Assembly (NCBI GenBank): GCA_024277525.1
Contig: JAJRUZ010000063.1
Location: 1-43,698, forward strand
Direction: 5' to 3'
Length of the DNA: 43,698 nt
Source of the DNA: Caldifarciminota bacterium
GTDB taxonomy: Bacteria > Hydrothermota > Hydrothermia > Hydrothermales > JAJRUZ01
Below the pieces are notes generated by a model. The model was given only the letters and a program-made list of their open reading frames with translations. It did not search any database and had not been told where the DNA came from. A program made the translations under genes and the position numbers. Below are positions 409 through 20,246 of this stretch, piece after piece. Every line of letters starts with the position of its first letter. The first letter of the stretch is position 1.

Positions 409-474
409 TTTTATCTCCCTTCTCCAAGGGGAAAAATGTCTGATTCGCGATTCGGAAATCGCTCCTACATTTCG

Positions 475-551
475 CTATGAATTTAATGGATGATGCACTA
501 CTTTCTTTTAACTTTTGACTTTTTAGATTTGACTTTTTTTAATCAATCCCC
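475..551 (+). repeat. 77-bp direct repeat, copy 2
   Basis: This is the second exact copy of the unit at 332-408. The 66-nt spacer between the copies contains a small inverted repeat around cgattcggaaatcg and the word gctcctacattt. The perfect identity of non-coding DNA points to a recent duplication or to gene-conversion-like upkeep. Confidence 0.9.
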
Positions 552-621
552 CTTCTCCAAGTGGGAAGTTTATCACATAAATGTAACTGCTACAGTTAGG
601 AGCTACATTTTTATTTAATAA

Positions 622-4063: not shown

Positions 4064-4064
4064 T

Positions 4065-4694
4065 TTATCCCACCCTTTCTTTTTTCTTTTTTAATAACTT
4101 CATTCTGAATTTATCCTCCCTTTCCCTATCTTCCAATACCCTCCTTATATAATTTACTTCCTCTTTTAACTGCGGAATCACCTTTTGCTCTAAAGCATTA
4201 ACTCTTCTTGTTGTTTTTTTAATCTCTTCTCCCAATCTTTTGAATTTTATCTCCATAGGGATTAAAGAAACAATTTCATCAATCAGGAGTTCAAATGAAT
4301 AAGCAGTTTCATCTATTCTTGTTGTAACCGAAAACGGACTGTATCCTCTTAAAAGAATACTCCTTTTTCCGTCTCCTCCCTCAATTTCAGGTACAGAAAC
4401 ACCCCAAACTTTTTTTTCTTTCATTTTCAAAATCAATTCCTTTGCAGAAGCAAAAGCAGCAGACCTCAGTTCCTCCGAACCGTCCTTTCCGAGAGCAAAA
4501 AGGAGAGTGTTTATTGCCCTTTCAAGGGTTTTATCCAGCTTTTTGTGTTTTTCTAAAAGGGGTTTTAAGAGTTTCAAAAATTCCGTAAGAAGAGCATCCC
4601 TTTTGTTTTTTAACAAAGATGCACCGCTTTCAGCAACTTTTATCTGCCTTCTTTTTAAAAGTAAATTCATTCGCGTGGGTGTGACATTTTCCAT
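4065..4694 (-). CDS. atpD: V/A-type ATP synthase subunit D
   Basis: The 209-residue protein starts with PTRMNLLLKRRQIKVAESG, close to the PTRMNLLKLKKRLKLA-type signature of V/A-ATPase subunit D. It is largely helical and ends in a basic coiled coil (EDREREDKFRMKLLKKKK), as expected of the rotating central stalk that links the catalytic head to the membrane rotor. Length fits the family. No other V/A-ATPase subunit is next to it; it heads a unit with ppiD and the BamA-like gene. The start ATG lies 6 nt from a TATAAT box, so the mRNA may be leaderless. Confidence 0.88.
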   Translation of the reverse strand: MENVTPTRMNLLLKRRQIKVAESGASLLKNKRDALLTEFLKLLKPLLEKHKKLDKTLERAINTLLFALGKDGSEELRSAAFASAKELILKMKEKKVWGVSVPEIEGGDGKRSILLRGYSPFSVTTRIDETAYSFELLIDEIVSLIPMEIKFKRLGEEIKKTTRRVNALEQKVIPQLKEEVNYIRRVLEDREREDKFRMKLLKKKKERVG

Positions 4695-4700
4695 GTGTTT

Positions 4701-4710
4701 ATTATATATT
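4701..4710. promoter_or_regulatory. Overlapping divergent -10 boxes for atpD (minus) and the small lipoprotein gene (plus)
   Basis: Only 23 nt separate the two start codons. On the minus strand TATAAT (4706-4701) is followed by 6 nt and the atpD ATG. On the plus strand TATATT (4705-4710) is followed by 7 nt and the lipoprotein ATG. A plausible plus-strand -35, GTGACA, lies at 4681-4686 with an 18-nt spacer. The two -10 boxes share 2 bp, so the promoters should compete, and both transcripts would start at or next to the ATG. Confidence 0.6.
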
Positions 4711-4717
4711 AAAACAA

Positions 4718-5107
4718 ATGAAATTTTCTAAAATGATTTTTATTTTTTTAATTGCTTTTGGATGTGCATATAAAGCACCACCTCCGGGTAAACCCGATTT
4801 TGATCCTCCTGAAATTAAAGTTTTAAATTTAAAAGACAAGGACACAATAAGAGATACATTAAAAGTAGAAGTAAAAGTGGAGGACAAGTCAAAGATTTTA
4901 TGGGTGAAAATGATTGTAAATGGAGAAGAATTTGCAGTTGATACACTCAAACCTTATGAGTTCTTCATTCCCCCACCTGATACGATATGGAAATTAATGT
5001 TTAAAGCAATGGACGAGTGGGAAAATCTCGGTTCTTCGAAACTTTTCAAAATTTTCGGTCCCTTTGTTGATACGATGAAAACGGATACTTCTGAGATTAA
5101 AAAATAA
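4718..5107 (+). CDS. Small lipoprotein with an Ig-like fold
   Basis: The 129-residue product has a signal peptide ending in a lipobox (FLIAFGC), so Cys16 is the likely lipidated residue. A proline-rich linker (APPPGKPDFDPPEIK) is followed by a single beta-rich domain with an Ig-like pattern (DTIRDTLKVEVKVEDKSKI, VKMIVNGEEF). These domains often occur in surface proteins of poorly characterised diderms. It is transcribed divergently from atpD. Its stop codon abuts, with no gap, the stop codon of the converging cytochrome gene. No specific function is recognised. Confidence 0.7.
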   Translation: MKFSKMIFIFLIAFGCAYKAPPPGKPDFDPPEIKVLNLKDKDTIRDTLKVEVKVEDKSKILWVKMIVNGEEFAVDTLKPYEFFIPPPDTIWKLMFKAMDEWENLGSSKLFKIFGPFVDTMKTDTSEIKK

Positions 5108-6364
5108 TCAGTGTTTTATCTTTTCCCAGTATTTTTTGAAATCAAAAAGAGGACTTCTGTCCGGCACATGACATTTTCTGCAAGTTTTCTCACCTTTTGT
5201 TATTGCTTTTTTGGTGGTCGGGTGCGTTTTCATATCCACCTTATGACATTGAATACAATGAATGTTTGCAAGTTCTTTTGTAAATTTGTAATTTTGAAAA
5301 CCTCCGGGTTTTCCGTAAAAAGTTGTATGGCATGAAAGACATTCAAAATTGTTTTCTTTTTTCATAGAAATAAGAACTTCAAATGCCTTTGCATGTTTTG
5401 TTTCTTTCCATTTCTTATATTCTTTTTGATGACAGGGTTTGCATTTTTCCGCTGTCGGCAACCTGGATTTTTCAATTATTTTTTTCCTCATTTCTTCCAT
5501 CCTTTTTTTCTTCATCTCTTTCCATTTTTCCTTTAATTTCTCAACCTCGGGATCTTTTTCAACTTTATCATTAAGCGGAATCTTGATCAATTTGTACATT
5601 TCATAATCTTTACCTTTCTTTCTAAAAAATAGCACAGGTAAATAAAGTCCGAATTTTGAAACAGTGAGTTGATATATATTTTCGTGCTTTTCAAATTTTA
5701 CATCAAATTTGGGTGACCTGCCGATAATATTCAAAAGCGGTAACTTACTTTCAAAAGGAAGGTCTGTCTTGGAGGAAGTTACAACCACAAGAAAGGCATC
5801 CTCTTCCTCCATTTTATTTTCCAATTCTTTAAATGCATTTTTTTCATATTCAAGAAGTCTCTTTTTACCCCTGTGAGGTACAAAAGATGTAAAATAAATT
5901 TTTGCATTTTTTAATTTAAATTCCTTATAAGGTGGTATCAGGTCCCTGAGATAAAAATCTATTCCGTAATAGGGAAACTTCAACACATTTACAAGGAATT
6001 CTATGTTTTCCCTTTTTGTAGTAACTTCTTTTCTTGATATTGCAAGGGCATCAACTTTCATAATTTTTAAAACATCCCTGAATACTCCAAGGAATTCGCG
6101 TTTTCCGGACGGATTTATGTAATTACCAGTATCAAAAGTAAGCAATTTCTTTTTGTATTTATTCTTTAAATATTTAATTACAAAGGCTTTTTTTGACAAT
6201 TCTCCGCCTTTAAAGGGCGGATGTCCGCATCCGCACGGTTCAAAATTGTTTCCGACATCCGAAATAAGAGCAATTGCGAAATCAAAAGAATCAGGAGAGG
6301 GAAGATTTTGAAAATAAGAAGGAACCGGTTTTAAAAAAATAAAATAAATTAATAAAAAATTCAT
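5108..6364 (-). CDS. Tetraheme c-type cytochrome fused to a metallophosphoesterase-like domain
   Basis: The N-terminus looks like an export signal (MNFLLIYFIFLKPVPS). Residues about 28-265 resemble the UshA/5'-nucleotidase-like domain that often precedes cytochrome c554-type modules, with the characteristic FEPCGCGHPPFKGGELSKKA segment. A lysine-rich coiled region (about 270-300) leads to four CxxCH haem motifs: C308-H312, C342-H346, C370-H374 and C395-H399. The product is probably a periplasmic or surface electron carrier. The physiological partner is not evident here. tRNA-Gln ends 12 nt before the ATG on the same strand, so the two may share a transcript. Confidence 0.8.
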   Translation of the reverse strand: MNFLLIYFIFLKPVPSYFQNLPSPDSFDFAIALISDVGNNFEPCGCGHPPFKGGELSKKAFVIKYLKNKYKKKLLTFDTGNYINPSGKREFLGVFRDVLKIMKVDALAISRKEVTTKRENIEFLVNVLKFPYYGIDFYLRDLIPPYKEFKLKNAKIYFTSFVPHRGKKRLLEYEKNAFKELENKMEEEDAFLVVVTSSKTDLPFESKLPLLNIIGRSPKFDVKFEKHENIYQLTVSKFGLYLPVLFFRKKGKDYEMYKLIKIPLNDKVEKDPEVEKLKEKWKEMKKKRMEEMRKKIIEKSRLPTAEKCKPCHQKEYKKWKETKHAKAFEVLISMKKENNFECLSCHTTFYGKPGGFQNYKFTKELANIHCIQCHKVDMKTHPTTKKAITKGEKTCRKCHVPDRSPLFDFKKYWEKIKH

Positions 6365-6376
6365 TTTTTCTTAAAA

Positions 6377-6448
6377 CTGGGGCGGGTGGATTCGAACCAC
6401 CACTCTGGGATCCAAAATCCCATGTCCTGCCGATTAGACGACGCCCCA
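6377..6448 (-). tRNA. tRNA-Gln (anticodon TTG)
   Basis: On the minus strand, 72 nt fold into a full cloverleaf. The acceptor stem is TGGGGCG/CGCCCCA with discriminator G. The anticodon arm is TGGGA-TTTTGGA-TCCCA, placing TTG at the anticodon. The T arm contains GGTTCGAATCC. CCA is not encoded. A possible promoter lies upstream (TTGATA, 17 nt, TTATAT). The next gene downstream, the cytochrome, begins after only 12 nt. Confidence 0.97.
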
Positions 6449-6496
6449 GTGTTTTATATTATAATATAAAAGTCCGAAGAATTAATTATCAAGCAC

Positions 6497-6502
6497 TATA
6501 AT
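6497..6502 (+). promoter_or_regulatory. TATAAT -10 box, leaderless-type start of the 6509 gene
   Basis: TATAAT is followed by exactly 6 nt and then the ATG at 6509. Transcription would therefore begin at or within a base or two of the start codon. No ribosome binding site could fit. No good -35 hexamer is seen at the usual distance. Confidence 0.5.
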
Positions 6503-6508
6503 ATAATA

Positions 6509-7627
6509 ATGAAATATAAAATCCCTCAAAATGACAAAGAATTACTTTTAGAGCCGAAAAATAAGGAAGAAATCCTGAATTTGTGTAAATTAAATAGGGA
6601 GAAAAGAGAAGAGTTTAAGAAATTTTTTGAATTTGAAACGGAAAAAAATTTTGTAGTTGCATCAGGACACCAAATAATATTTTATCATCCGGGAATATGG
6701 GCCAAAAATATTTTTTTAAATTTAGTTTCAAAAACACAACTTAAAACTGTCTTTTATGAACATGATGTTGACGGAATTGAAGGTCTTTATTTTTATTATC
6801 CTGATAAAAAACTGAAAATAAAAAGGGAATATATTTTTTATAATCCAGATAAAATTGCACTTGAATATATAGAGAGTAAACATATTATTGAAAATAAGAA
6901 ATTGATTGATAAAGTAATTGATAGGCTCCCTGATTTTAAAATTAAAAAGAATGCTCTCAAATTCTTTGAAATTTTCAAAGATTCACTTAAAAAGAATGCC
7001 TTTTATTCGGAAGCATTCGTGTCAGCAAGAAAAGAATATGAGGAAAATCCGGGTTATAAATCAGTTTTTTTATCAGATGTATTTAATAGTCCCTTATTTT
7101 TTAAATTTTTTGCTTATTTTTTTGCAAAAGCAGAGGAAGTTTTGGAATGTTATAATAACGCAATCCTTGAATACAGGAAAAAATACAAAATAAAAAATAA
7201 AACAGAACCTGCTCCTTTGTTAGAAAAAGAAAATAATTTGATAGAACTCCCCTTTTTTTTGAATTTGAGGGAAAGATATAAAGTTTATAAAAAAGACAAT
7301 AAACTTGTGTGCTCAAAATTTGAAATAGAACTCGGCAAAGGAGAAGAAATTTTTTATAATTCTTTAACCCTGCCTTTGAGACCCAGAAGTTTGATTCTTT
7401 CCCTTTATCAAAAAATTTTCCTGTGTGATTTATTCTATCACGGTGTCTCGGGAAAAAACTATGATGAGACAAGTAACATATTTTGTCGAAAATTCTTCGG
7501 TATTGAACCACCGGAGACAGGAGTCATAAGTTTAACACTTTTTATCAAGGAAATCAAAAAAAGGGACTTCCCTTTTTTCTTTTTTGAAAAAGAAGAGATT
7601 GAAAAAATTATTTCTTTTTCAATGTAA
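6509..7627 (+). CDS. Conserved hypothetical protein, distantly BshC-like
   Basis: The 372-residue soluble protein has two segments that look conserved. Near the N-terminus is VVASGHQIIFYHPGIWAKN, which resembles the TGQQ-type opening motif of BshC, the cysteine-adding enzyme of bacillithiol synthesis. Near residues 300-335 is LFYHGVSGKNYDETSN followed by FFGIEPP. I recall this as the signature of an uncharacterised bacterial family with an FIHGIGG-KYD motif. It is shorter than typical BshC (about 540 residues) and no other bacillithiol genes are nearby, so that function is only a possibility. The 3' end overlaps the converging ybbR gene by 20 nt. Confidence 0.45.
   Translation: MKYKIPQNDKELLLEPKNKEEILNLCKLNREKREEFKKFFEFETEKNFVVASGHQIIFYHPGIWAKNIFLNLVSKTQLKTVFYEHDVDGIEGLYFYYPDKKLKIKREYIFYNPDKIALEYIESKHIIENKKLIDKVIDRLPDFKIKKNALKFFEIFKDSLKKNAFYSEAFVSARKEYEENPGYKSVFLSDVFNSPLFFKFFAYFFAKAEEVLECYNNAILEYRKKYKIKNKTEPAPLLEKENNLIELPFFLNLRERYKVYKKDNKLVCSKFEIELGKGEEIFYNSLTLPLRPRSLILSLYQKIFLCDLFYHGVSGKNYDETSNIFCRKFFGIEPPETGVISLTLFIKEIKKRDFPFFFFEKEEIEKIISFSM
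7556..7578 (-). terminator. Intrinsic terminator of the ybbR unit, embedded in the end of the opposing gene
   Basis: An A-tract, GGGA, CT, TCCC and a T-tract form a 10-bp palindromic stem (7557-7566 with 7569-7578). On the minus strand it lies about 30 nt beyond the ybbR stop and is followed by a T-run, which is the layout of a factor-independent terminator. On the plus strand the same bases encode the KKRDFPFFF stretch of the converging gene. Confidence 0.6.
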
Positions 7628-8510
7628 CTCTTATTGCTTCCGGTTCAACCTTTGAAATCAAAACCTTATCAGGCAGGCGAATTTTGGGTTTTATAAAAAA
7701 TTCTCCCTCTGTTAAATTTAAAGTATTTATTATTACATCAATATCTTCTTTTTTAATTTTTTCAAGTATTGATTCCGGTCCTTTAATTCTTACATACAAT
7801 TTTTCGGGTTCGGCTTCCACTTTGTAATTTTTGGGTTTTAAAATTATATAAGGAACATTTGTAAATTCTTTTTCAGAAATTTTCTCTATCTCAATATAAA
7901 CAGAGGCTGTTTCAGGAGAGATTTTCACAACCTCGGAAGGCTTTAAAAGTTCTGCTTTTGCCTCAAAACTCTTTTCCCTTTTTTCCACAGATACAAATTC
8001 TGTTCTTATACTGTCTATATTTTTTAATATAGTTTTTGGACCTATAAGTTTAACAACCGTTTCTGTTTTTTTTGACTTTACTGTAAAGCCTGCTCTCGGA
8101 TTCCCCTTTATCCTTGCACTTACAGGCACTTCTTTCTCCCCCTTTATGTCAAGTTTGATATTAATAAATTTTTGTTTAAAATCTATGGATTTAATTTTTA
8201 TAAAGTCCGAAACCTCAAGAAACGCATTTTTTATTTCAATTTTATTTTTCCCTTTTTTCGGTTTATTAAATTTAAATATGAGTTTTGGTTTAAAAAATTT
8301 CATGAATAAAAGTGCCCTTCCGTCAGCCTCTATCTCTGCTTTTATTTTTTTTAAAGGAGGTTCAAGAAAAGTAAGTGAATCAGGGATTCCTTCATATACA
8401 ATTTCTATATCCCTTTCAACCTTGTAAATCTGACCCGTGACCGAGAAAAACCACAAAATTACACCTATGGTAATTGAAAGAATAATCTCTATTATATCTC
8501 TTCTTGTCAT
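7608..8510 (-). CDS. YbbR-domain protein (CdaR-like)
   Basis: The 300-residue product has one N-terminal membrane helix (IIEIILSITIGVILWFFSVTG) and a long extracytoplasmic part with repeated YbbR-type beta domains. Recurrent elements are VPVSARIKGNPRAGFTV and KLIGPKTILKNIDSI, and later NYKVEAEPEKLYVRIKGPESIL. In Firmicutes, CdaR regulates the diadenylate cyclase CdaA. No cdaA is adjacent here, so a c-di-AMP link is only inferred. It starts directly after the macro-domain stop and is probably co-transcribed with it. Confidence 0.8.
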   Translation of the reverse strand: MTRRDIIEIILSITIGVILWFFSVTGQIYKVERDIEIVYEGIPDSLTFLEPPLKKIKAEIEADGRALLFMKFFKPKLIFKFNKPKKGKNKIEIKNAFLEVSDFIKIKSIDFKQKFINIKLDIKGEKEVPVSARIKGNPRAGFTVKSKKTETVVKLIGPKTILKNIDSIRTEFVSVEKREKSFEAKAELLKPSEVVKISPETASVYIEIEKISEKEFTNVPYIILKPKNYKVEAEPEKLYVRIKGPESILEKIKKEDIDVIINTLNLTEGEFFIKPKIRLPDKVLISKVEPEAIRVTLKKK

Positions 8511-9044
8511 TTATAAAAATTTTGAGAAAAATTTACAGGTCTCTTCATTGATATCGCATAAATAGACTTTTTCAATGGATTTTGCTTCTTCTTTCAAAAA
8601 GTTTTTTACTTCTTCAACAATTATCTTACATCCTTTTTCTTTCGGAAAGCCGAAGATTCCGGTTGAAATCGCGGGAATGGATATGCTTTTTATGTTTTTT
8701 TCTTCCCCTCTTTTTAAGGCATTCTTTACCGCATTCTTCAGTTTTTTTTCCTCATCACCTTCTCCCCATCTCGGACCGACTGCATGTATCACATATTTTG
8801 CTTTCAAATTTCCTGCGGATGTAACCACTGCTTCTCCCACAGGACAGTATCCTATTTTATTGCTTTCTTCCTGAATAATTTTCCCGCCTTTCCTCACAAT
8901 TGCTCCTGCAACACCTCCACCGTGTTTTAAATATTCATTTGCAGCATTCACAATTGCATCGGTATCCATTTCTGTAATATCGCCCAAGTAAACATATATG
9001 TTTCTCCCGTTTATTTCTTTTTCATTCAAAATTTTTCCTTTCAT
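8511..9044 (-). CDS. Macro-domain protein (ADP-ribose / O-acetyl-ADP-ribose deacetylase type)
   Basis: The 177-residue protein is one complete macro domain. It shows [16 protein letters not shown], the [13 protein letters not shown] loop, and the [15 protein letters not shown] and [13 protein letters not shown] motifs that bind ADP-ribose. MacroD-type enzymes remove ADP-ribose or deacetylate O-acetyl-ADP-ribose in the cytoplasm. I chose the ATG at 9044. A longer frame up to 9251 only runs antisense into the divergent gene and has no family-like sequence. A TATAAT box ends 6 nt before this ATG. ybbR follows with no gap. Confidence 0.9.
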
Positions 9045-9050
9045 ATTTTT

Positions 9051-9056
9051 ATTATA
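9051..9056 (-). promoter_or_regulatory. TATAAT -10 box, leaderless-type start of the macro-domain gene
   Basis: On the minus strand TATAAT is followed by 6 A/T bases and the ATG at 9044, the same spacing as at 4694 and 6509. The start codon would be at or next to the transcript 5' end. The divergent gene at 9080 begins 35 nt away and must share this short A/T-rich region. Confidence 0.55.
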
Positions 9057-9079
9057 CTTTGAAAATATTTTAAAATTAA

Positions 9080-10786
9080 ATGATGCAAAACAACAGATTA
9101 TTGCCTGATGAAATAAAATATTTTGAGAAAATGTTGAGAATAGCGGAAAAAAGGGATGTATGTCTGAAAATAGTTGAAGAAAAGGAAAAAGGAAGGATTT
9201 TTTTGGTAGCAAGGGATTGGCCGGGTCTTCAGGATACGGTTTCAACCGCAATTCATGAGAGGGGATTTAATATTTTATTTTTTATGGGATTTGTTATGGA
9301 GAAGGGATTTGCAGGAATTATTGCAGAGATTGATTTAAGTGACGAAGAAATAAGGGAAAAATTCAAAAAAGAAAAGGATTTTTTTAAAAAATATCTTCCT
9401 GATATAGCAAGATTTGATCCATGGATGAAAGGTTTGATTGACTCCACCGCTTCAAAGTTAAGGATTTTCAGGGAAGTGTTGAGAATTTTAAGAAGGGAAA
9501 TAAGGGCGAGAAAAAGGATAAGGGAGATTGTGCTTGAAACAGAGAAATTTTTCTCTTCAAGATCCTGGGCATACATAGGGGAGAGGAGGCCCGAAGATAT
9601 TGCTCAACAAATTTTGATGCAAATAGAGCTGAGAAAAATAGTAAAAGAAAAAGGGGGGATATATGTTCATATTAAAAATTTTCAAACAACTTCGGAAGAA
9701 TTGACGGGTATTTTAATTGCGGGTCCTTCACGGGAACTTTTCTTAGATCAGGTTCTTGATGTTTTAAGGGAAATTCTACCGGATTTCAGAAGGAAATTTG
9801 AAAAGGTTTTTACACAAGATGGTGTTACGGTCATTCGGCTTGAGATTCAAACACCCGATGAAAAATGGTATCCGGAGGAAAAGCATTTTTTGATAGAAAG
9901 GTATTTAATTGAACACCTGAAATTGAGGAGGAGAAAAATATTAAGTGAAAGATTGAGGGTCAGTCCGGAAATTATAGGAAGGGTAATAATACCTTCTCTG
10001 ATTCAGGAAGCAAGAAATACCCAGATTCCTCAGGTTTATTTTCTTTTAACCGGTTTAACAGAGGAATCTTATCATTTTAAACTGCTTGCAGTGATTCCCA
10101 AAAGAGAAAACGGAACCTATACTGACGAAATTATTAAGGCACTTGAAAAAGATGAAGGGATAAGTGTTTTATCTTCAAAAGCTCCTTCTTTTTCTTATGG
10201 ATACGAGGTTGTGATTATTAATTTCAGTGCAAGTGTCAGAAAATTTGAGGGACCGGAGGATGTATATAAAAAACTTAATGAAATTTTAAGGGAAATAATC
10301 GGAAACTTCAGGGATTTTGATCAGGGATTAAGGATAGTTGAAGAAATGAAATTTTCTCAACTTGAAGAAAAAATGGCTGGTTCAGGAATTGAATCCCATC
10401 TTTTGAAAAGGCTTTATTACTCATTGGATGAATTTTTCAGGGTGCAGGCAGAAATTGATGACCTTGCGGTCGGATTTGAAACATTGTGGAAAGCAATCAT
10501 TGCTTCAACTCAAACTCATAAATTCATATGTGATTTCAAAGAGGGGAAGAAGTCTTCAATACTTGTTATATGCGGGGATAATGCAGAAAAATTGTTTGAA
10601 TTATTACTTGACGAATTCAGGGGAAAAGAAATTTCTGCTCTGAGATTTGATGACCTCGGTTTAATTGCCTATTTAATTTTTTTATCTTATAATCAAAAAT
10701 CTGTGCCTTTAAATGAATTACAAAAGGCACTGAAGAACATTTGTGAGAAATCTTCAATTGAGGTTCAAATCCCCACACAAGTGTAA
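9080..10786 (+). CDS. Large protein of unknown function with ACT-like segments
   Basis: I do not recognise the full 568-residue protein. Residues about 38-100 look like an ACT ligand-binding fold ([20 protein letters not shown] then [12 protein letters not shown]), with the usual PGL turn. Similar alternating beta-alpha stretches recur at about 190-260 and 320-400, so tandem regulatory domains are possible, as in GlnD or large NAD-glutamate dehydrogenases. No catalytic motif is seen. It is 11 nt upstream of sucC and likely in the same transcript, which hints at a role in amino-acid or TCA-linked control (inference). An ATG pair opens the frame; the first is used here. Confidence 0.6.
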
Positions 10787-10797
10787 AAGATTTAAAA

Positions 10798-11943
10798 ATG
10801 AAATTACTTGAATATCAAGGAAGGATTTTATTTAAAAATTACGGAATACCCGTTAAAGAGGGTGATGTTGCAAAATCACCCGAAGAAGCTTACGAGATTC
10901 ATAAAAGGTTGAATAAAAAGGTTGTTATAAAAGCACAGGTTCCTGTGGGCGGAAGGGGAAAGGCAGGCGGTATAAAACTTTCCGAAAAACCTGAAGAAAC
11001 AAAAGAACTTGCAGAGAAAATTCTTTCTTTGACCATAAAGTCCTATCCTGTAAAGAAGGTGCTTGTTGCAGAGGCTGCTGAGATAAAAAAAGAAATGTAT
11101 ATTTCTTTAACCCTTGACAGAAGAACGGGCAAGGTGCTTTTGATGGCGATAAAAGAAGGAGGTATTGAAGTTGAGGAAATTGCTAAGGAAAGACCAGAAG
11201 CAATTTATACGGATTACATTCCCATTTTAAGAGGGCTTTCTCCTTATCAGATAAGAAATGTAAGTGAGTTTTTGTTCGATGGTGAAAAAGATTTAAAAAA
11301 AGAATTTTCGGGAATACTTTTGAAAATGTGGAAACTTTTCAGGGAGTGTGATGCAAACTTGGTTGAGATTAATCCACTTGCTGTATGTGAAGACGGAAAA
11401 TTATGGGCTATTGATTCAAAAATAATCCTTGATGATAATGCCTCTTTCAGGTATCCGGAGTGTGTACCTGATAGGGATATGGATTATGAAAATTTAAAAG
11501 AATTTGAAGCAAAGGAGCATGGGCTTTCCTATGTAAAACTTGAAGGTAAGGTGGGGTGTTGTGTAAACGGTGCGGGTCTTGCAATGGCTACAATGGATAC
11601 TCTCAAGAAATTCGGAGGTGAACCGGCTAATTTCCTTGACATCGGGGGTTCTTCGTCACCCGAAAAAGTAAAAGCAGCAATGAGAATTCTTTTATCCGAT
11701 AAGAATGTAAAATCGGTATTTTTTAACATTTTTGGAGGAATAACGAGATGTGATGATGTTGCAAACGGAATGGTGAGTGCATTTCAGGAATTAAAACCGG
11801 AACTTCCGATTGTTGTAAGATTGACAGGAACAAATGAAGAGGAGGGGAGAAAAATTTTGGAACAATCAGGACTTAAAATTTATCCTGCAAAATCAATGGA
11901 CGAGGGAGCAAAACTTGCTGTTCAGTTTGCTGAAAAAACATAA
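10798..11943 (+). CDS. sucC: Succinyl-CoA synthetase (ADP-forming) beta subunit
   Basis: The 381-residue protein begins MKLLEYQGRILFKNYGIPV, as in SucC, and has an ATP-grasp domain (KAQVPVGGRGKAGGIKL, ECDANLVEINPLAV). The C-terminal CoA-ligase domain contains FLDIGGSSSPEKV and FFNIFGGITRCD. Length matches the family. The enzyme makes ATP from succinyl-CoA, or the reverse, in the cytoplasm. The alpha subunit gene sucD, normally next to it, is absent from this window; asd follows after 13 nt. No strong ribosome binding site is seen. Confidence 0.95.
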   Translation: MKLLEYQGRILFKNYGIPVKEGDVAKSPEEAYEIHKRLNKKVVIKAQVPVGGRGKAGGIKLSEKPEETKELAEKILSLTIKSYPVKKVLVAEAAEIKKEMYISLTLDRRTGKVLLMAIKEGGIEVEEIAKERPEAIYTDYIPILRGLSPYQIRNVSEFLFDGEKDLKKEFSGILLKMWKLFRECDANLVEINPLAVCEDGKLWAIDSKIILDDNASFRYPECVPDRDMDYENLKEFEAKEHGLSYVKLEGKVGCCVNGAGLAMATMDTLKKFGGEPANFLDIGGSSSPEKVKAAMRILLSDKNVKSVFFNIFGGITRCDDVANGMVSAFQELKPELPIVVRLTGTNEEEGRKILEQSGLKIYPAKSMDEGAKLAVQFAEKT

Positions 11944-11956
11944 AAGATAAAAATAA

Positions 11957-12889
11957 ATGAAAATCTGCATCCTGGGCGCAGGAGGACTGGTTGGAAAAAC
12001 CCTTCTCAAAGTAATTAATGAGAAAGGTTTTCCTTATGATGAGGTCTATCTTTTCGGAGCAAAGAATGAAGAGATTGAAATAAACGGTAAAAAGTTTATT
12101 ATTGAAAAATTTAAAGGAAAAATTCCCCGTTGTAACCTTATTTTTTCCTGTCTTGATACAGAAGAAGCAAAGAAGTTTATCCCGGAAATTTTAAAAACAG
12201 GTAGAAGGGTAATTGATAATTCTTCTGCTTTCAGACTCGAGAAAGGTGTTCCTCTTATTATTCCCGAAATTAACGGAGCGGAGTTAAATAAAAAAAACAT
12301 TCTAATAAGCAACCCGAACTGTTCAACAATTCAACTTTTACTTTCTATTTCTCCGTTTCTCAAATTCGGGATAGAGAAAGTCTTTGTTTCTACTTATCAA
12401 TCGGTATCAGGTGCAGGAAAGAAGGGACTTCTTGCATACGAGCAAGAAAAAAAGGGGAGAAAATACAAGGATTCTCCTTTTCCCTTTCAAATGTATGAAA
12501 ATCTTTTTCCCTGGATAGGTGAAATTGAGAATGGGGAGACGGCTGAGGAGAGAAAGATTATAAAAGAAACGAAGAAAATATTAAAAAATAAAGAACCTGA
12601 AGTTTATCCTTTGTGCGTGAGAGTTCCTGTGCCTTATGTGCATTCACAGTCGGTTTTTTTAGTATTGAAGAAGGAAATTACTGAAAAGGAAGCAATAGGG
12701 GAAATTGAGAAAATAAATTATCTTGTATATGATGAGATTCCCTGCCCCATCAATTATAAGGATAAGGATATAATAGGTATCGGAAGGATAAAAGTAAAAG
12801 GTAAAATTTTGAAATTCTTTACCTGTATGGACAATTTGAGAAAGGGGGCAGCAACGAATGCATTACAGATAGCGGAATATTATGTCTGA
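11957..12889 (+). CDS. asd: Aspartate-semialdehyde dehydrogenase
   Basis: The 310-residue protein has an N-terminal NADP-binding motif (CILGAGGLVGKTLL) and the active-site segment ISNPNCSTIQ with the catalytic cysteine. VSTYQSVSGAGKKGL and the C-terminal DNLRKGAATNALQIAE also match the family. It converts aspartyl phosphate to aspartate semialdehyde for lysine, threonine and methionine synthesis; dapB of the same pathway is at 39317. The last 8 nt overlap the start of the sigma-factor gene. Confidence 0.95.
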   Translation: MKICILGAGGLVGKTLLKVINEKGFPYDEVYLFGAKNEEIEINGKKFIIEKFKGKIPRCNLIFSCLDTEEAKKFIPEILKTGRRVIDNSSAFRLEKGVPLIIPEINGAELNKKNILISNPNCSTIQLLLSISPFLKFGIEKVFVSTYQSVSGAGKKGLLAYEQEKKGRKYKDSPFPFQMYENLFPWIGEIENGETAEERKIIKETKKILKNKEPEVYPLCVRVPVPYVHSQSVFLVLKKEITEKEAIGEIEKINYLVYDEIPCPINYKDKDIIGIGRIKVKGKILKFFTCMDNLRKGAATNALQIAEYYV

Positions 12890-14117
12890 TAAAAAATCAT
12901 ACGGTGATAAACCGCTTGAGATTTATTTTAAGGAGATATCGCGTTATCCGATTTTACCCCCTGATGAAATAGATAAATTAGTGATAAAGGCACAAAAAGG
13001 GGATAAAGTGGCAAGGGAGAAAGTTGTTCATTCGCTTTTAAGGCTTGTGGTTAGTATAGCAATGAAATACAGAGACTTAGGAGTTCCTGTTCAGGATCTT
13101 ATAAATGAAGGTAATCTCGGACTTTTAAGGGCAATAGATAAATTTGACCCATCAAAGGGGGTTCACTTTGTAGGATATGCCCCTTATTGGATAAAACAGG
13201 CTATAACCCGTGCTCTGGATGAGCAATCCACAACAGTAAGGATACCTTCCGAACACAGAACAGCTATCAGAAAAATTAAAAAAGCAGAGGAGGAACTTGC
13301 GTATAGAAGAGGCGAGATAACGATTGAAGATATAGCAAAGGCAACCGGTTTACCGGAAGAAGAAATCAAATTTGCATATACCATAAGTTCTCAGGAATTT
13401 TCGCTTGATCAGTTAACCATAGAGGGAGAAGAAAAGGCTTCCTGGGAAGAAGTCATAACTCAAAAATCCTTACCCTCACCTGAAATTGAACTTGCAGAAG
13501 AAAAAAGAAAATTCAAGATAAGAAAAATAGTAGAAAATTTACCTTTAAGGGAAAGGTTAATTTTGTATCTTTATACAGGTTCGGAATTTACATGCAGGGA
13601 AATACTTGAAATCATAAGAGAATATTCAAAAATGATGGGTTATGAGGTAAATGAGGAAAAAATAATTGTTAATATGCTCCAATCGGTATGTAGGGAATCG
13701 GTAGACGAACTAACTATCTTAGGTGAAATAAGTTATGATTTTCTTGATTTATTAAAAAAGACACGCGACCTTGAATTGTGGAAAAAAATGGGTAAAAATA
13801 TAAATTTAATTAAGAAAATTTTCGAATCAGAGAAAATAGATATAAAAGAAGCTGTTTTATTCCACAGATATTGGAAATATATTGAAGACGAAACGAACAG
13901 AAGGAAAGTTTTTATGAAGTGGGTAAAAAACAAACTCAGAGAGGAACCAGAAAGGAATGTATTTTTATTGTATTATTCACTTGATTCCGGCTATACACAG
14001 ACATTGGAATTCATAGGAAATTTAATAGGAATATCAAGGGAGAGAGTGAGACAGATTAAGGAAAGAACAATGAGGGAATTACAAAAAAGGTTTGAAAGGG
14101 AGAAGATAGAATATTGA
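12882..14117 (+). CDS. rpoD: Primary-type sigma-70 factor with a large insertion near region 4
   Basis: Residues 10-40 match region 1.2. Residues 48-118 are a strong region 2 (NLGLLRAIDKFDPSKGVHF, YWIKQAI for -10 recognition). Residues 119-200 are region 3. A region-4.1-like start follows at 215-236 (IVENLPLRERLILYLYTG), but the expected continuation is missing. About 116 unrelated helical residues (237-352) intervene. A complete region 4 then appears at 353-405 (FIGNLIGISRERVRQIKER), which should contact the -35 box. Region 1.1 is absent. Total length is 411, against roughly 290 for the core of regions 1.2-4. It sits between asd and a nitrilase-family gene and overlaps both. Confidence 0.9.
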   Translation: MSDKKSYGDKPLEIYFKEISRYPILPPDEIDKLVIKAQKGDKVAREKVVHSLLRLVVSIAMKYRDLGVPVQDLINEGNLGLLRAIDKFDPSKGVHFVGYAPYWIKQAITRALDEQSTTVRIPSEHRTAIRKIKKAEEELAYRRGEITIEDIAKATGLPEEEIKFAYTISSQEFSLDQLTIEGEEKASWEEVITQKSLPSPEIELAEEKRKFKIRKIVENLPLRERLILYLYTGSEFTCREILEIIREYSKMMGYEVNEEKIIVNMLQSVCRESVDELTILGEISYDFLDLLKKTRDLELWKKMGKNINLIKKIFESEKIDIKEAVLFHRYWKYIEDETNRRKVFMKWVKNKLREEPERNVFLLYYSLDSGYTQTLEFIGNLIGISRERVRQIKERTMRELQKRFEREKIEY

Positions 14118-14923
14118 GGATAGGGTTTTTTCAATTTTCTCCTTTTCACGGTAATAAAGAAAAGAACATTGAAATAATAATAAATATTTTAAAAAGAGGG
14201 AAGGCGGATTTAATAGTATTTCCCGAACTTGCCACTTCGGGTTATTTAATTCCTGATAAAAATTTTTTAAGAAAAAATGCTTTTAAGGTTCCTGATAGTA
14301 AAGAGTTTGAGATGTTATTAAAAGTTGTTAAGAAGGAGAAGACAGGAATTGTATTGGGTTTTCCCGAGTTAAAGGACGGGAAATTTTTTAATTCCGCTCT
14401 TTTTATTTTACCTGACGGCAAATTCGGTGTTTACAGAAAAATTCATCTTTTTTACAAAGAGAAGAAATTTTTCAAAAGCGGAAAAAATCCTGATGAGGGT
14501 ATTTTTACTTATATTGGTTTTAAATTCGGAATAATAATATGTTTTGATTGGCTTTTTCCTGAGCATTTGCGATATCTTGCGTATAAGGGAATTCAGGTTG
14601 TTTTGCATCCCTCCAATCTTATATTACCTTGGGGACAGAGGGCTATGATAATAAGGGCAATAGAGAACAGGGTATTCACATTGACCGCAAATCGTGTAGG
14701 AGAGGAGAAATACAGGAATGAGCATTTAAAATTTACGGGTAAAAGTCAACTCGTTTCACCTGATGGAAGGATTCTTATGAGAGCAAATTCAGGTTCTGAA
14801 GTTTTAAGAATTAAAGAAATAAATCCAGCCGAAGCTAATAGAAAATTAATTACCCCTTATAATGATATTTTTGAGGATTTAAAAACAGTGCAATTTAAAT
14901 ATTCGGAAGGGAAGACATATTAA
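14114..14923 (+). CDS. Carbon-nitrogen hydrolase (nitrilase/amidase superfamily)
   Basis: The 269-residue protein carries the complete Glu-Lys-Cys triad of the family: Glu in VFPELATSGY, Lys in YRKIHLFYKEKKFF, and Cys in IIICFDWLFPEHLRYLA. Such enzymes hydrolyse amides, ureido compounds or nitriles in the cytoplasm. The segment around the cysteine (ICFDWLFPE) is like beta-ureidopropionase and N-carbamoyl-amino-acid hydrolases, but the substrate cannot be fixed. It begins with TTG, which overlaps the TGA of the sigma-factor gene, so the two are translationally coupled. Confidence 0.85.
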   Translation: MRIGFFQFSPFHGNKEKNIEIIINILKRGKADLIVFPELATSGYLIPDKNFLRKNAFKVPDSKEFEMLLKVVKKEKTGIVLGFPELKDGKFFNSALFILPDGKFGVYRKIHLFYKEKKFFKSGKNPDEGIFTYIGFKFGIIICFDWLFPEHLRYLAYKGIQVVLHPSNLILPWGQRAMIIRAIENRVFTLTANRVGEEKYRNEHLKFTGKSQLVSPDGRILMRANSGSEVLRIKEINPAEANRKLITPYNDIFEDLKTVQFKYSEGKTY

Positions 14924-14925
14924 AA

Positions 14926-14992
14926 GTAGCATAAATGCAACTGCTACAAGATTTCAATCTCTCTTAATTTCTTTTTTAAAGAGAATTTATGC
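14926..14992 (+). terminator. Nested inverted repeats between converging genes, terminator-like
   Basis: Just after the nitrilase-family stop, GTAGC (14926-14930) pairs with GCTAC (14943-14947). A wider pair, GCATAAAT (14929-14936) with ATTTATGC (14985-14992), encloses TCTCTT and AAAGAGA arms. Several alternative hairpins are possible. The 122-nt gap to the converging methyltransferase gene holds nothing else recognisable. A 19-nt part (14930-14948) is nearly identical to 576-594. Confidence 0.4.
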
Positions 14993-15045
14993 AATAAATA
15001 ACACTGCATGAAATCCGAATCAAATTAATACTCCGAGATGTAAAG

Positions 15046-15657
15046 CTAAAGGATAAATAAATAAAAAATACTTCCGAAAATATTTTTATATCTTTTTACT
15101 TTATACTTTTTTATAAATTTTCTTACATCAAAACCCAGGATGCTCTTTCTTAAAAATTCATATTCCGGAAACGAAAAAGAGAGTAATTTTGTAAAAAGAT
15201 AAATATAAGGTATAAATAATAAAGAAAAGGGAAAACAGGGTCGCACCATGTCAAGTAAGAAAATGTGTCCCCTATTCTTTAGGACCCTCCTTGACTCCCT
15301 GAAAAATCCTTCCTTATCTTCAATGTTCCTGAAAAGATAAGCACTTACAATATAATCAAATTTGTTATCCTTAAAACATAAATTCCGGGCATCCGAGAGA
15401 ATATAAGTTATTTTTCCATTTTTAATTCTCTTTCTAAGCATTTCTTTTGAGATTTCAATCGCATATATCTTTTTTACTCTTTTGTTTTTACTTAAGTAAT
15501 ACGCTAACTCTCCTTTTCCTGCTCCGAGGTCACATACCACACCTTTTAGTTTCTTGGATGTATACCATCTTGAAAAGTGATCAATTCCGAATGAGAAGAG
15601 CACATTGACAATATCATAAATACCTGAAATGCCCTTAAACCTGTCCTTTGCACTCAC
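15046..15657 (-). CDS. MenG/UbiE-like class I SAM methyltransferase
   Basis: The 203-residue protein has FKGISGIYDIVNVLFSFGID, the usual N-terminus of demethylmenaquinone methyltransferases. SAM motif I follows (VVCDLGAGKGELAYYL), then DARNLCFKDNKFDYIVSAY and FFRESRRVLKNRGHIFLLD. It probably methylates a quinone ring. Menaquinone would suit the Complex I operon in this window, but substrate assignment is inference. The start is GTG and overlaps the ZIP gene stop by 4 nt; it is the last gene of the nine-gene unit. Its stop is TAG, rare in this window, followed by an in-frame TAA 7 codons later. Confidence 0.78.
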   Translation of the reverse strand: MSAKDRFKGISGIYDIVNVLFSFGIDHFSRWYTSKKLKGVVCDLGAGKGELAYYLSKNKRVKKIYAIEISKEMLRKRIKNGKITYILSDARNLCFKDNKFDYIVSAYLFRNIEDKEGFFRESRRVLKNRGHIFLLDMVRPCFPFSLLFIPYIYLFTKLLSFSFPEYEFLRKSILGFDVRKFIKKYKVKRYKNIFGSIFYLFIL

Positions 15658-16391
15658 CCTTTAAGGGTTATTTTTAAGAAGTACATAAGCACGATACCCG
15701 ATAAAAAGAAAATAAAAGAAGAAAGGGATTTTTTGAAATTAACCTCTTTGTGAAGTTCAGGAACCAGGTCAGAGGCTGATATATAAAAAAAATTGCCGGC
15801 TGCAAATGCCATTATGTAAGGAATGTAACCCGTCTCCTTTACAAAGAAAAAACCCGATATCCCTCCTATTATGGCAGTAACCGCAGATGCAAAATTGAAA
15901 AGAAGTGCTTTTGTTCTGTCCATTCCTCCGTAAACTAATATTGCATAATCACCTATTTCCTGCGGCACTTCATGAGCCATGACAACAAAAGTAGTTATAA
16001 TTCCGAATTTTAAGTCAATTAAAAAACTTGCTGCTATTATAACTCCGTCAATGAAATTATGAAGACCGTCACCGATTAAATTCAAATAACTCACAGGATG
16101 AATTTCACATCCCCATTCATGACAGTGTCTCCACCTGAGAACCCTTTCAAGAAGGAAAAAAGAGATGAATCCTGAAATAAAAAACCATGAAGCAGTGAGG
16201 GGAGAAAGATGCTCAAGGGAATGAGGAAGCAAATGAAGAAATGACCCCCCGATTAAGGCACCTGTCGCAATTGAAATGAGTGTGAATAAAATTTTTTCAA
16301 ATAATTCTTTTTTTAAAAACAAAAAAAATATACCTGTTAAGGCAATAAGACTTACAAGAGAGGTTGCTATCAATATATAAAGAAGGACCAT
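15654..16391 (-). CDS. ZIP-family divalent metal transporter
   Basis: The 245-residue protein is almost entirely membrane-spanning, with about eight helices. Helix 4 carries GDGLHNFIDGVIIAASF and helix 5 carries VVMAHEVPQEIGDYAIL, the two histidine-rich metal-binding motifs of ZIP transporters. A short histidine-bearing loop (RWRHCHEWGCEIHP) lies before helix 4 and may bind metal. It should import zinc or another divalent metal. It overlaps the prepilin peptidase gene by 22 nt and the methyltransferase gene by 4 nt. Confidence 0.88.
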   Translation of the reverse strand: MVLLYILIATSLVSLIALTGIFFLFLKKELFEKILFTLISIATGALIGGSFLHLLPHSLEHLSPLTASWFFISGFISFFLLERVLRWRHCHEWGCEIHPVSYLNLIGDGLHNFIDGVIIAASFLIDLKFGIITTFVVMAHEVPQEIGDYAILVYGGMDRTKALLFNFASAVTAIIGGISGFFFVKETGYIPYIMAFAAGNFFYISASDLVPELHKEVNFKKSLSSFIFFLSGIVLMYFLKITLKG

Positions 16392-17107
16392 CGGAAAGGA
16401 ATTATGTTATATATAAAGACACCCGAAAACAGAAAGGGCAAAAGGGGTAAATATTTCTCTTTTTTAAATAAAAGGATAATAATTCCGAATATTGAACCTA
16501 TTAAAAAAGAAAGAAAAAAAACAAATAAAAAATCAAAACCCCTTATGTAAATTCCCATTAATGCAAAAACATAAGGGTCTCCTTCTCCGAGTGCTTCTTT
16601 TTTAAAAATTTTATTTCCTCCCCATCTTATTAAAATTCCGAATAGAAATCCGAGAAAGGAAAAAATTATGGATGAAAGCAAATGCTTTGAAAAAAATGCA
16701 ATGAGAAATCCGAAATATAAGGAAGGAAAAAGCAAAATATCATAAACATAATGAGTATCAAAATCAATAAAAGCCATTATCATTAAAAAATACATTATTG
16801 ATATTGCTTCAAGGGTTTTAAGTGAAATTCCGAAGTAAAGATAAGGAACAACAAAAATGATAGCAGAGAGTATCTCAACGAGCGGATATCTTAATGATAT
16901 TTTTTCTCCACAGTATCTGCATCTGCCCTTTAGAAACAAATAACTCAGTACAGGGATATTGTCGTAGAATTTGATTTTATTTTTACAGTTGGGACAGAAA
17001 GAGGAAGGAATTATAATGGAAATTTCTTTCGGAATTCGATATATTAAAACATTTGCAAAGCTTCCGAAAGAAAGCCCTAAGAATAAGAAAATTAAAAGTT
17101 CAACCAA
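16370..17107 (-). CDS. Prepilin peptidase / type IV leader peptidase (A24 family)
   Basis: The protein starts with a membrane helix and GLSFGSFANVLIYRIPKE, the standard opening of PilD. The methyltransferase-associated zinc motif has two CxxC pairs (FCPNCKN and CRYCGEK). The two catalytic aspartates lie in MAFIDFDTHYVYD and the GEGDPYV motif. It cleaves and N-methylates type IV prepilins or type II secretion pseudopilins at the inner membrane. I chose TTG at 17107 because the family N-terminus begins there; frames reaching 17197 add sequence antitypical for the family. With this start it overlaps the original end of the GGDEF gene by 8 nt. Confidence 0.85.
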   Translation of the reverse strand: MVELLIFLFLGLSFGSFANVLIYRIPKEISIIIPSSFCPNCKNKIKFYDNIPVLSYLFLKGRCRYCGEKISLRYPLVEILSAIIFVVPYLYFGISLKTLEAISIMYFLMIMAFIDFDTHYVYDILLFPSLYFGFLIAFFSKHLLSSIIFSFLGFLFGILIRWGGNKIFKKEALGEGDPYVFALMGIYIRGFDFLFVFFLSFLIGSIFGIIILLFKKEKYLPLLPFLFSGVFIYNIIPFRWSFFIY

Positions 17108-18386
17108 ATGCGAGTACTTTGTTTTTACCCGATTCTTTTGCTTTGTAAAGGGCTCTATCAGCCTTATCAATAAGCAATTTCGCATCATCCGCATCATCCG
17201 GAAATACTGCTACTCCACCTGAAATTGTGAGTTTTCAACCCGGTTGTTTTTCCTCATGCGGAAATTTTGTCCTTTCTATTATCTGCCTTACCATTTCTCC
17301 GTATCTTAATGATTCAATTTTATTTTTTTTGGGTAAAATTACCACGAACTCTTCTCCTCCGTATCTTGCGGGAATTCCTTTTGCCGTCTCCGCGGTTTTT
17401 TTCAGAATTTTTGCAATGCTTTTTAAAAGAAGATCCCCTTTCGGATGTCCGTTTGTATCATTGTACTTCTTAAAATAATCAATATCCATTAAGAATAATC
17501 CGACCTGAAAACCGTCCTTTTTTGCATTTTCAAGAATTTCTTGAAGTTTTTCCATGAAATATCTCTTGTTGTATATTTCTGTCAATCCATCTGTGTCAGC
17601 CATTCTCTGGATTTTTTCCATTAATTCCGCAGACCTCAAAGCTAATGCCCCGAGTTCCGAAATCATTTGTACTGTTTCCATTGCTGCCCTCAAAGCTTCC
17701 TCTTTTGATTCCTCATACACAACACCTTCTATTTTCTCTTGCTTTATTCCAGAAACCGCAAGGACTCCGAAAAGTCTTTCACGGTGAAAAAGAGGCGATA
17801 TTATCTCATAATTGATACCGAAGGGATCAGTAAGTTGAGTCTCGGGTATTCCTTCAACAAGCGCATCTTGGTACATTGTATCTTTATCCATTGTGAATCT
17901 CTTTTTCGCAGCATAACCGATCGGTCCTTCTCCGAAATTATAAACCAGAGCCCCTCTTCCTAAGAGTTCTTTGTCTTCAAAACTTTTATGTTTGTAAAGA
18001 ACAAGTTTAAATCCTCCCTCAACCGCATTGAAATAATAAACATCATTTGCATTAATTATGTTCTTCACTTGCTCCGTCAAAAGTTCAATTATTTCTTCCT
18101 TTTCCGTCAATTCGCTTAAAGCACCTGCTAAATTCAAAACAGCCTGAATTATTCTCTTTCTCTTTGAGAAAAGCATATTAAGTTCATCTATTCTGCTTGT
18201 CAATTCTTTCATCATAAACTCATGACTCTCCCTTAATCTCCTTAACCTTTTCTCATAATCCTTTTTTATTTTTCTTTCTTTATTTATTTTACTTTTTAAT
18301 TCCAAAATTATTATTAAAAGAATCACCAATAATCCGCCTGCTATACTCGCAACCAGTCCGAAATTTTCACTTATAAAATTTTCCAT
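17100..18386 (-). pseudogene. GGDEF diguanylate cyclase (TM + GAF-like + GGDEF) interrupted by an in-frame TGA
   Basis: One N-terminal membrane helix (LVASIAGGLLVILLIIILEL), a coiled coil and a GAF-like domain (about 80-235) precede a GGDEF domain. The domain has MADTDGLTEIYNKRYF and an active-site RYGGEEF at 343-347. No RxxD inhibitory site precedes it. A TGA at 17235-17237 stops translation after 383 residues (KQPG). The same frame then continues for 45 codons with the missing end of the domain (KLTISGGVAVFPDD, DKADRALYKAKESG) and stops at 17100. A glycine codon is expected at the TGA. It could be a nonsense mutation, a sequencing error or recoding. The truncated product lacks the last strand and helix of the domain. 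Confidence 0.85.
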
Positions 18387-19635
18387 TTTTTATCCTCTTT
18401 TTTAAAATTTTTTCAATTTTTAATAATTTATTGTAAAGTTTTTTCCTCAGATTTTTAAATTCTTTTTCATTAATCGGAACCTTATTTTTAAAAAGATTTT
18501 CCTGAACCACCTTATATGCCTTACTCCTTTCCATTCCCTTTTCAATTAAATAATACAAAATCCCTTGAGAAAGGAGATAAATTTCATTTTTCTTTAAGTT
18601 TTCTTCTATTTTCTTTAAATCTATATTTAAATTTTTTAAAACAAAGATCATTTTATCAAGCATGTAATAAACAAGATGTGAAGCATCGGGCAGGATAATT
18701 CTTTCAACAGAAGAATGAGATATATCCCTTTCATGCCATAAAGCAATGTTTTCAAGGGCAGAAATAAGATACCCCCTTAATATTCTTGCCATTCCGCATA
18801 TTCTTTCCGAAATAATAGGATTTTTTTTATGTGGCATACTTGAAGAGCCTTTCTGTCCCTTCTTAAAGGGTTCTCCCCATTCACCCACCTCTGTTCTTGA
18901 TAAAAGACGAATTTCTGTTGCTATTCTTTCAAGAGATGAAGCTATAAGAGTTAATGTGAAGACAAATTTTGCAACCCTGTCTCTGGGAACAATCTGAGTT
19001 GAAACAGGCTCGGGCTTTAATCCGAGCTTTTTCATTACATATTTTTCAATTTCAGGGTCTATGTGAAGGTAATTTCCCACAGAACCTGATAATTTTCCGT
19101 AAGAAATTTCTTCCAGAGTATTTTTCAATCTTTCTTCATTTCTTTTTACTTCTGATAAATAGGATAAAAATTTATGAGATAAGGTCATAGGTTCGGCAAA
19201 CATTCCGTGTGTTCTCCCTGCTGTTATGACACCTTCATATTCGGAAACAAGATTTTCCAAAACACTCTTTAACTCCCTTTGTTTTTTCATTATAAGTTCC
19301 AGAGTCTCCTTCATCTGAATTGCAAGTGTTGTGTCAAGTAAATCAGATGAAGTTAAGCCGAAATGAATATAAGGAGCTATTTCTCTTCCTACTTTCTTTT
19401 CAAGAATGTCCACAAATGCAGCAACATCATGATTTGTCACTTTTTCTCTTTCTTTCACTTCCTCCGGTGTTATTTTTTTCACTTTTTTTCTTATTTTATC
19501 TGCTATTCCTTTTTTAATAATTCCCTTTTTTTCAAGACCCTCAATTGTTAATATTTCTATTAAAAGCCATATTCTTAATTTATTTTCCTCACTCCATATT
19601 TTTTCAATTTCCGGTATTTTGTATCTTTCAATCAT
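18367..19635 (-). CDS. purB: Adenylosuccinate lyase
   Basis: The 422-residue protein shows the fumarase/aspartase superfamily signature GSSSMPHKKNP. It also has TNHDVAAFVDIL, HFGLTSSDLLDTTLA and AGRTHGMFAEPMTLSHKF, all typical of PurB. It acts twice in purine synthesis, releasing fumarate from SAICAR and from adenylosuccinate. It overlaps gmk by 4 nt and the GGDEF gene by 20 nt within the minus-strand unit, so purine genes are expressed together with signalling and pilus genes. Confidence 0.95.
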   Translation of the reverse strand: MIERYKIPEIEKIWSEENKLRIWLLIEILTIEGLEKKGIIKKGIADKIRKKVKKITPEEVKEREKVTNHDVAAFVDILEKKVGREIAPYIHFGLTSSDLLDTTLAIQMKETLELIMKKQRELKSVLENLVSEYEGVITAGRTHGMFAEPMTLSHKFLSYLSEVKRNEERLKNTLEEISYGKLSGSVGNYLHIDPEIEKYVMKKLGLKPEPVSTQIVPRDRVAKFVFTLTLIASSLERIATEIRLLSRTEVGEWGEPFKKGQKGSSSMPHKKNPIISERICGMARILRGYLISALENIALWHERDISHSSVERIILPDASHLVYYMLDKMIFVLKNLNIDLKKIEENLKKNEIYLLSQGILYYLIEKGMERSKAYKVVQENLFKNKVPINEKEFKNLRKKLYNKLLKIEKILKKRIKNGKFYK

Positions 19636-20246
19636 ATTTTTTCCTCTGATATAAGATATGTTCTTTTTGCTTTTAATTTTTCCGCCTTATAGATATTTTC
19701 AACCATTTCAAAAGTCTCCTCCACGATTGTATTCACAATGGTATAATCAAAGAATTTCCACATTTTACTTTCTTCCTTTGCCTCCATTAATCTCTTTTCA
19801 ACAAGTTCAGGATTATCAGGATGCCTTTTTGAAAGACGATTCAAAAGTTCTTCCCATGATGGAGGAAATAAGAAAATTGAGACGATATCCTCAAAATGCC
19901 TTTTCAAATTAAAAAGACCCTTTGAATCCATATCAAACAATACATTGTATCCTTGATCAAGCCATTTTAACACAGGCTCCTTAGGGGTTCCGTAGTAATT
20001 TCCGTAAGCAAATGTCCATTCTATAAGTTCGCCGTTCTCTATCTTTTTCTTAAATTCGTCTTCGGAAACATAATAATAATCAACTCCCTCAATTTCTCCC
20101 TCTCTTTTTTCTCTGGTTGTGTAAGAAATTGAATATTTAATTTCATTTTTATATTTTTTCAAAAGTTTTCTCACGATTGTAGTTTTTCCTGTTCCTGAAG
20201 GACCTGATATTAAGAAAATGAAAGGTTTTCTTTTCAGTTCAATCAA
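19632..20246 (-). CDS. gmk: Guanylate kinase
   Basis: The 204-residue protein has the P-loop GPSGTGKTTIVRKLL, the GMP-binding SISYTTREKREGE, and VDYYYVSEDEFKKKI. Length fits Gmk. It phosphorylates GMP to GDP. It overlaps panC by 8 nt and purB by 4 nt. The gmk-rpoZ pairing common in bacteria is absent. Confidence 0.96.
   Translation of the reverse strand: MIELKRKPFIFLISGPSGTGKTTIVRKLLKKYKNEIKYSISYTTREKREGEIEGVDYYYVSEDEFKKKIENGELIEWTFAYGNYYGTPKEPVLKWLDQGYNVLFDMDSKGLFNLKRHFEDIVSIFLFPPSWEELLNRLSKRHPDNPELVEKRLMEAKEESKMWKFFDYTIVNTIVEETFEMVENIYKAEKLKAKRTYLISEEKI

Follow-up and report, generated by a model that had tools for sequence, protein, structure and literature searches.

A group-2 sigma factor with a family-specific helical insert between two region-4.1 helices

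The window, which is the whole stretch of 43,698 nucleotides analysed here, contains a sigma-70 family gene whose product carries regions 1.2, 2 and 3, a first region-4.1 helix, a long insert and then a second, complete region 4. The gene, its immediate neighbours and the mapped parts of its product (residues numbered in the sigma protein) are listed below, where G001-G003 are the three other genomes of the same family in which the sigma factor was compared and G004 is a genome of a sister family in the same order.

10798..11943, forward strand: succinyl-CoA-ligase-like protein (ATP-grasp_2 and Ligase_CoA), an upstream neighbour, which is also found upstream of the insert-free ortholog in G004
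11957..12889, forward strand: semialdehyde dehydrogenase, an upstream neighbour that shares 8 bases with the start of the sigma gene; gene order retained in G001-G004
12882..14117, forward strand: sigma-70 family gene for a group-2 (RpoS/SigB-like) secondary sigma factor of 411 amino acids, ATG start
12912..13004, forward strand: region 1.2, residues 11-41 (PF00140, below the Pfam cut-off)
13026..13229, forward strand: region 2, residues 49-116 (Pfam PF04542, 56.5 bits)
13263..13484, forward strand: region 3, residues 128-201 (Pfam PF04539)
13539..13580, forward strand: first region-4.1 helix, LPLRERLILYLYTG, residues 220-233, at its normal linear place; helix 222-232 in the AF2 model
13581..13943, forward strand: insert, residues 234-354, predicted to be all-helical, family-specific and without known relatives
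13944..14093, forward strand: second, complete region 4, residues 355-404, with the 4.1 helix EPERNVFLLYYSLD and a 4.2 helix-turn-helix; Pfam PF04545 (356-402)
14034..14069, forward strand: -35 recognition helix SRERVRQIKERT, residues 385-396, the same in all four members of the family
14114..14923, forward strand: carbon-nitrogen hydrolase, the downstream neighbour, which shares 4 bases with the end of the sigma gene; also found in G001-G003

Regions 2, 3 and 4 of the sigma-70 family are matched above the Pfam cut-offs (PF04542, PF04539 and PF04545, respectively), with the region 3 match just over its threshold; region 1.2 is matched at a sub-threshold 16.4 bits, and region 1.1 (PF03979) was not found by Pfam. 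The sequence-only reading had described the protein as a primary-type sigma factor, but the housekeeping RpoD of this genome (102 contigs, 2.34 Mb) is another gene, located on contig C78, whose 557-residue product includes a weak region 1.1 (PF03979) together with all other regions and finds its best matches among the RpoD models. On the RpoD model TIGR02393, which has a curated cut-off of 354 bits, the C78 protein scores 343.3 and the window sigma only 177.6 bits. The best NCBIfam scores of the window sigma, which are to RpoS, cyanobacterial RpoD and the RpoD C-terminus, all fall far under the cut-offs, and with 190.8 bits on the RpoS equivalog model TIGR02394 (curated cut-off 378.7 bits) the protein is not filed as RpoS. 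Assignment as an ECF sigma with a fused regulatory domain, which would have regions 2 and 4 only, is rejected by the presence of region 3. The window sigma is thus a group-2 type secondary sigma factor and not a primary sigma. In common with other members of group 2 (RpoS, SigB and the cyanobacterial SigB/C/D type), it has regions 1.2, 2, 3 and 4, has neither region 1.1 nor the large non-conserved region, and is accompanied by a separate RpoD; it differs from them in having region 4.1 twice, with about 120 residues between the two copies.

It is also set apart by the distance between the region-2 EGN motif and the point where region 4 ends, which is 192-198 residues in all but three (308, 160 and 160) of the 104 other sigma open reading frames from the loci retrieved for comparison, but about 328 residues by the same measure in the window sigma (EGN at 76, end of region 4 at 404). 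Because the same insertion is found in three other genomes and because this length is near-invariant in the 104 sigma reading frames, the extra block is far beyond chance. It comprises residues 234-354, or about 121 residues, in good agreement with the roughly 116 extra residues placed beside region 4 by the sequence-only reading, whose boundaries (4.1 at about 220-232, insert at 237-352, region 4 from 355) are right to within a few residues. As had also been pointed out, this position is unlike that of the usual non-conserved region of RpoD, which is likewise a large lineage-specific insert in a sigma-70 factor but lies between regions 1.2 and 2.1 and not in region 4.

All four of the family genomes examined, which represent two genera, carry the insert at the same place in proteins of 411-412 amino acids, and these are 73-76% identical overall and about 58-62% identical in the insert. 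The ortholog in G004 (L009/L159), which occupies the corresponding locus and is preceded by the same pair of genes, has no insert; it is 279 amino acids long, so that the window sigma exceeds it by 132 residues (411 versus 279), is about 48% identical to the window sigma outside the insert and, unlike it, has a single ordinary region 4. The insert had no match in the other 36 genomes of the class examined, nor in the other genomes of the phylum (147 searched) save for one sub-threshold hit in G108 (E 0.004), which is attributed to chance as the stretch concerned contains 7 stops. Since the same-locus ortholog of G004 is without the insert and no match was found elsewhere in the phylum, the insertion most likely arose after the split between the family of the window and that of G004.

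Comparison of the window with L006 shows synonymous sites near saturation and a dN/dS of about 0.1 for the whole insert, which is therefore a selected protein segment under purifying selection. Within it, residues 276-353 are 64-65% identical, likewise with a dN/dS of about 0.1, and are unrelated to region 4. An assembly or frame artefact is rejected by the recurrence of the same insert in G001-G003, the synonymous saturation and the low dN/dS. Of the two outcomes that were said in advance to count against the insert, an assembly artefact is thus contradicted by its recurrence, and a feature standard in all related sigma factors by its absence from the genomes searched outside the family.

The relationship of the two ends of the insert to region 4 is apparent from comparisons with solved SigA chains by phmmer, in which residues 9-231 of the window sigma align with 118-340 of the C. 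difficile chain and residues 355-406 with 331-382, such that chain residues 331-340, belonging to the 4.1 helix, are matched twice. In the S. aureus SigA chain the doubly used stretch is 309-315. Against a region-4 profile of the insert-free orthologs, the first copy (residues 206-255) gives an E value of 5.8e-7 and the second copy one of 8e-21, and Pfam returns a weak second region-4 match, PF08281, at residues 212-241. On a 4.1 profile the first copy scores 15.0, above all 1000 shuffles (at most 11.1), whereas on the helix-turn-helix profile it reaches -0.4 bits only; past its first helix, region 4 is not detectable by sequence. The window sigma accordingly has a first and a second 4.1 helix in one protein, with the whole 4.1 register present in both (RERLILYLYTG and ERNVFLLYYSLD) but only once in the insert-free ortholog. 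These matches bear out the description of a normal 4.1 opening that is broken off and followed by a fresh, complete region 4, as well as the proposal that the first copy is a duplicated 4.1 helix. On the question of whether the extra residues form a separate domain or a degenerate second region 4, the first helix of the first copy belongs statistically to region 4, but the remaining helices match nothing.

Within the family, strong conservation (75-92%) is seen over the first 4.1 stretch, residues 220-255, with the pattern RERLI-YLYTG-EF-C-EIL, and residues 234-275, which occupy the place of the remainder of a first region 4, contain no -35 reading residues; the third helix (256-275), at the place of a would-be recognition helix, is the least conserved part, with 25-50% identity. 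The second region 4, by comparison, is canonical and carries the only intact -35 recognition helix of the protein. In the family alignment its residues R386, E387 and R390 are invariant in all four members, and these are the counterparts of R584, E585 and R588 of sigma70, which read the -35 element (PMC2613000).

No relatives of the insert were found in Pfam, PHROGs, PDB, IMG/VR or GTDB, nor by a scan of the contigs of named genomes, and a scan of named genomes with the whole window protein returned only distant sigma factors among the matches listed. Weak hits to Pfam HSR, DUF4041 and TEN_YD-shell, to a PHROG and to GdmF in the PDB were inconsistent between family members or too weak and are ascribed to chance, and a phage origin is discounted as no relative was found in IMG/VR. 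In the full-length AF2 model, for which the alignment places the gaps by hypothesis, the insert is all-helical, with several helices in 276-353, and confidence is 80-93 over about 220-300 and again good at about 340-400. Modelled alone, the insert gives a poor result (pLDDT 52) and a detailed fold is not claimed; a fold search with the whole model retrieved ordinary sigma factors only and was uninformative on the insert.

An independent parallel is provided by the Acidobacteriota. Among the best 80 named sigma loci listed, a single one, L056 ('Acidobacteria bacterium isolate BP6.bin107'), shows excess length, and the same doubled form is present in 19 of the 148 genomes searched around it, in one case split over two open frames next to a masked stretch. 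These proteins (L056:5962-7134, forward strand, and L126-L144) are group-2 sigma factors of about 390 amino acids with a clear tandem region 4. Like the window sigma, they have a conserved 4.1 helix in the first copy (in their case LSPKERLVLTLRHGVSDN), then a spacer and a canonical second region 4 (in their case with SRERVRQIE), but in them the entire first copy can be recognised as a region 4 with a decayed recognition helix, and not only its 4.1 part. In L143, for instance, there are two PF04545 stretches and the first copy is matched by PF08281 as well, at 212-266.

In a tree of regions 2-3, each doubled form groups with the single-copy relatives of its own lineage, that is, the window family with G004 (96/91) and the doubled with the single forms of the Acidobacteriota (100/100). 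A single origin of the two is rejected (AU p=0.00018), and their middle parts are unrelated in sequence. Judged by these sequence comparisons, the tandem form of the Acidobacteriota arose separately from that of the window family, of which it is, in respect of this trait, an analogue and not a relative. With 4.1 kept in the first copy and 4.2 kept in the second, the same division occurs twice, separately. By analogy, the window lineage may plausibly contain a tandem region 4 of which the first copy has decayed.

Region 4 is known to bind the beta-flap, an interaction that contributes to setting the -10/-35 spacing and to positioning the domain for a -35 element that is usually 16-18 bp from the -10 (PMC2613000). 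The most economical reading, and the one that we tentatively prefer, is that the C-terminal domain has been doubled in part and expanded within one family, with the first 4.1 helix docking on the core and the second copy reading the -35 element. The first helix, at its normal place after region 3.2, would have been retained for docking of the sigma C-terminus on the core polymerase at the beta-flap, DNA reading by this copy would have been lost, and the helical spacer may have moved the second, DNA-reading region 4 elsewhere or left it loosely tethered. The usual 17-bp coupling of -10 and -35 reading would then be altered, and the promoters served might have an unusually placed or dispensable -35 element. 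A tandem duplication is not proven for the window lineage, in which the first helix is the sole part of the first copy that can be shown to be region 4, and for this reason the docking/reading split is put forward with reserve. Several promoters with a good -10 but poor -35 had earlier been thought to fit the insert, but this link is not supported, as sigma-70-like sites at positions 1-20000 of the window occur at chance level (81 found versus 72.6 +/- 8.3 in shuffles).

The strongest rival, in our judgement somewhat unlikely, is that the insert is a built-in regulatory domain within region 4, a sensor or autoinhibitor with a role like that of an onboard anti-sigma factor, which would keep the surface with which the second region 4 binds the flap or DNA masked, pending release by a signal or partner; the double 4.1 would then be a seam. 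The conserved block of some 80 residues (276-353), unrelated to region 4 and predicted by AF2 to form several helices, is in keeping with such a domain, as is the observation that no anti-sigma gene is recognised adjoining the window sigma gene. Furthermore, region 4 is a known place of fused regulation in ECF sigma factors, as reported for the C-terminal domain of ECF41 (PMC3426412) and the on-board iron sensor of OrbS (PMC9023288). In these, as in the window sigma, an extra domain or sensor is found at region 4; they are, however, ECF sigma factors of two domains in which the extra part sits at region 4 or behind it, whereas here it precedes a complete region 4 in a group-2 sigma factor. Against a regulatory domain are the lack of any Pfam, PHROG or PDB domain, the failure to find a standalone relative, and the composition of the insert in the family alignment, where a single Cys (C238) and a single His (H328) are invariant and no conserved metal-ligand cluster is obvious.

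Next in strength, and unlikely, is the insertion of a helical domain of unknown origin in or just after 4.1 without any duplication of region 4, in which case the second '4.1' would combine chance similarity with the C-terminal half of the original helix, displaced by the insertion. The stretch matched twice is indeed short, at 7-10 residues, the first copy has no helix-turn-helix similarity, and the N-terminal helix of the second copy is not significant by itself, its upstream half scoring nothing alone, and is matched only within the whole second region 4. However, the whole 4.1 register stands in both copies and only once in the insert-free ortholog, and the Acidobacteriota demonstrate that region 4 can truly occur in tandem with its first copy decayed. 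That the elongation is neutral or slightly harmful and leaves promoter choice unaffected is most improbable, since its restriction to one family is outweighed by an insert that remains about 60% identical in both genera at a dN/dS of about 0.1 despite near-saturation of synonymous sites, and by a further gain, in another phylum, that shows the same division between the copies.

Returning to the preferred split between docking and reading, a wider generalisation, which we regard as doubtful, would be that tandem-region-4 sigma factors, with one copy specialised for the core and the other for DNA, make up an architectural class that is undescribed, has at least two origins and uncouples the -35 element from the fixed 17-bp geometry, such that upstream elements that are displaced or distant might be read by their holoenzymes. 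In the open-access literature searched, a description of a tandem region 4 was not found, and two matches to 'two sigma4' concern other matters. The near-invariant length from region 2 to region 4 in these sigma factors accords with the fixed -10/-35 distance, and the addition there of about 130 residues under selection, together with the case in a second phylum, offers a direct means of testing the rigidity of that rule. The tandem forms also make it possible to ask whether the two tasks of region 4, core docking and -35 reading, can be divided between copies, and the window sigma may exemplify a new means of changing the fixed distance that separates the two promoter-reading parts of a sigma factor.

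The neighbouring genes do not tell what the role of the window sigma is. Adjoining the sigma cluster, at 9080-10786 on the forward strand of the window, is a 568-residue protein that is about 70-74% conserved in three family genomes and has no Pfam match. A macro-domain protein is encoded at 8511-9251 on the reverse strand, where its listed TTG start overlaps the reading frame at 9080 on the opposite strand; its relatives have only 177 amino acids, so that the true start probably lies at a more internal position. In G003 and G001, a very large open reading frame (L156:7294-12636, 1780 amino acids, and L157:1-4299, incomplete) lies downstream of the carbon-nitrogen hydrolase; it is absent at that place in the window. 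Elsewhere in the phylum, the window protein finds six sigma matches in genome G043, among them two separate sigma factors of group-2-like type with about 296 and 304 amino acids.
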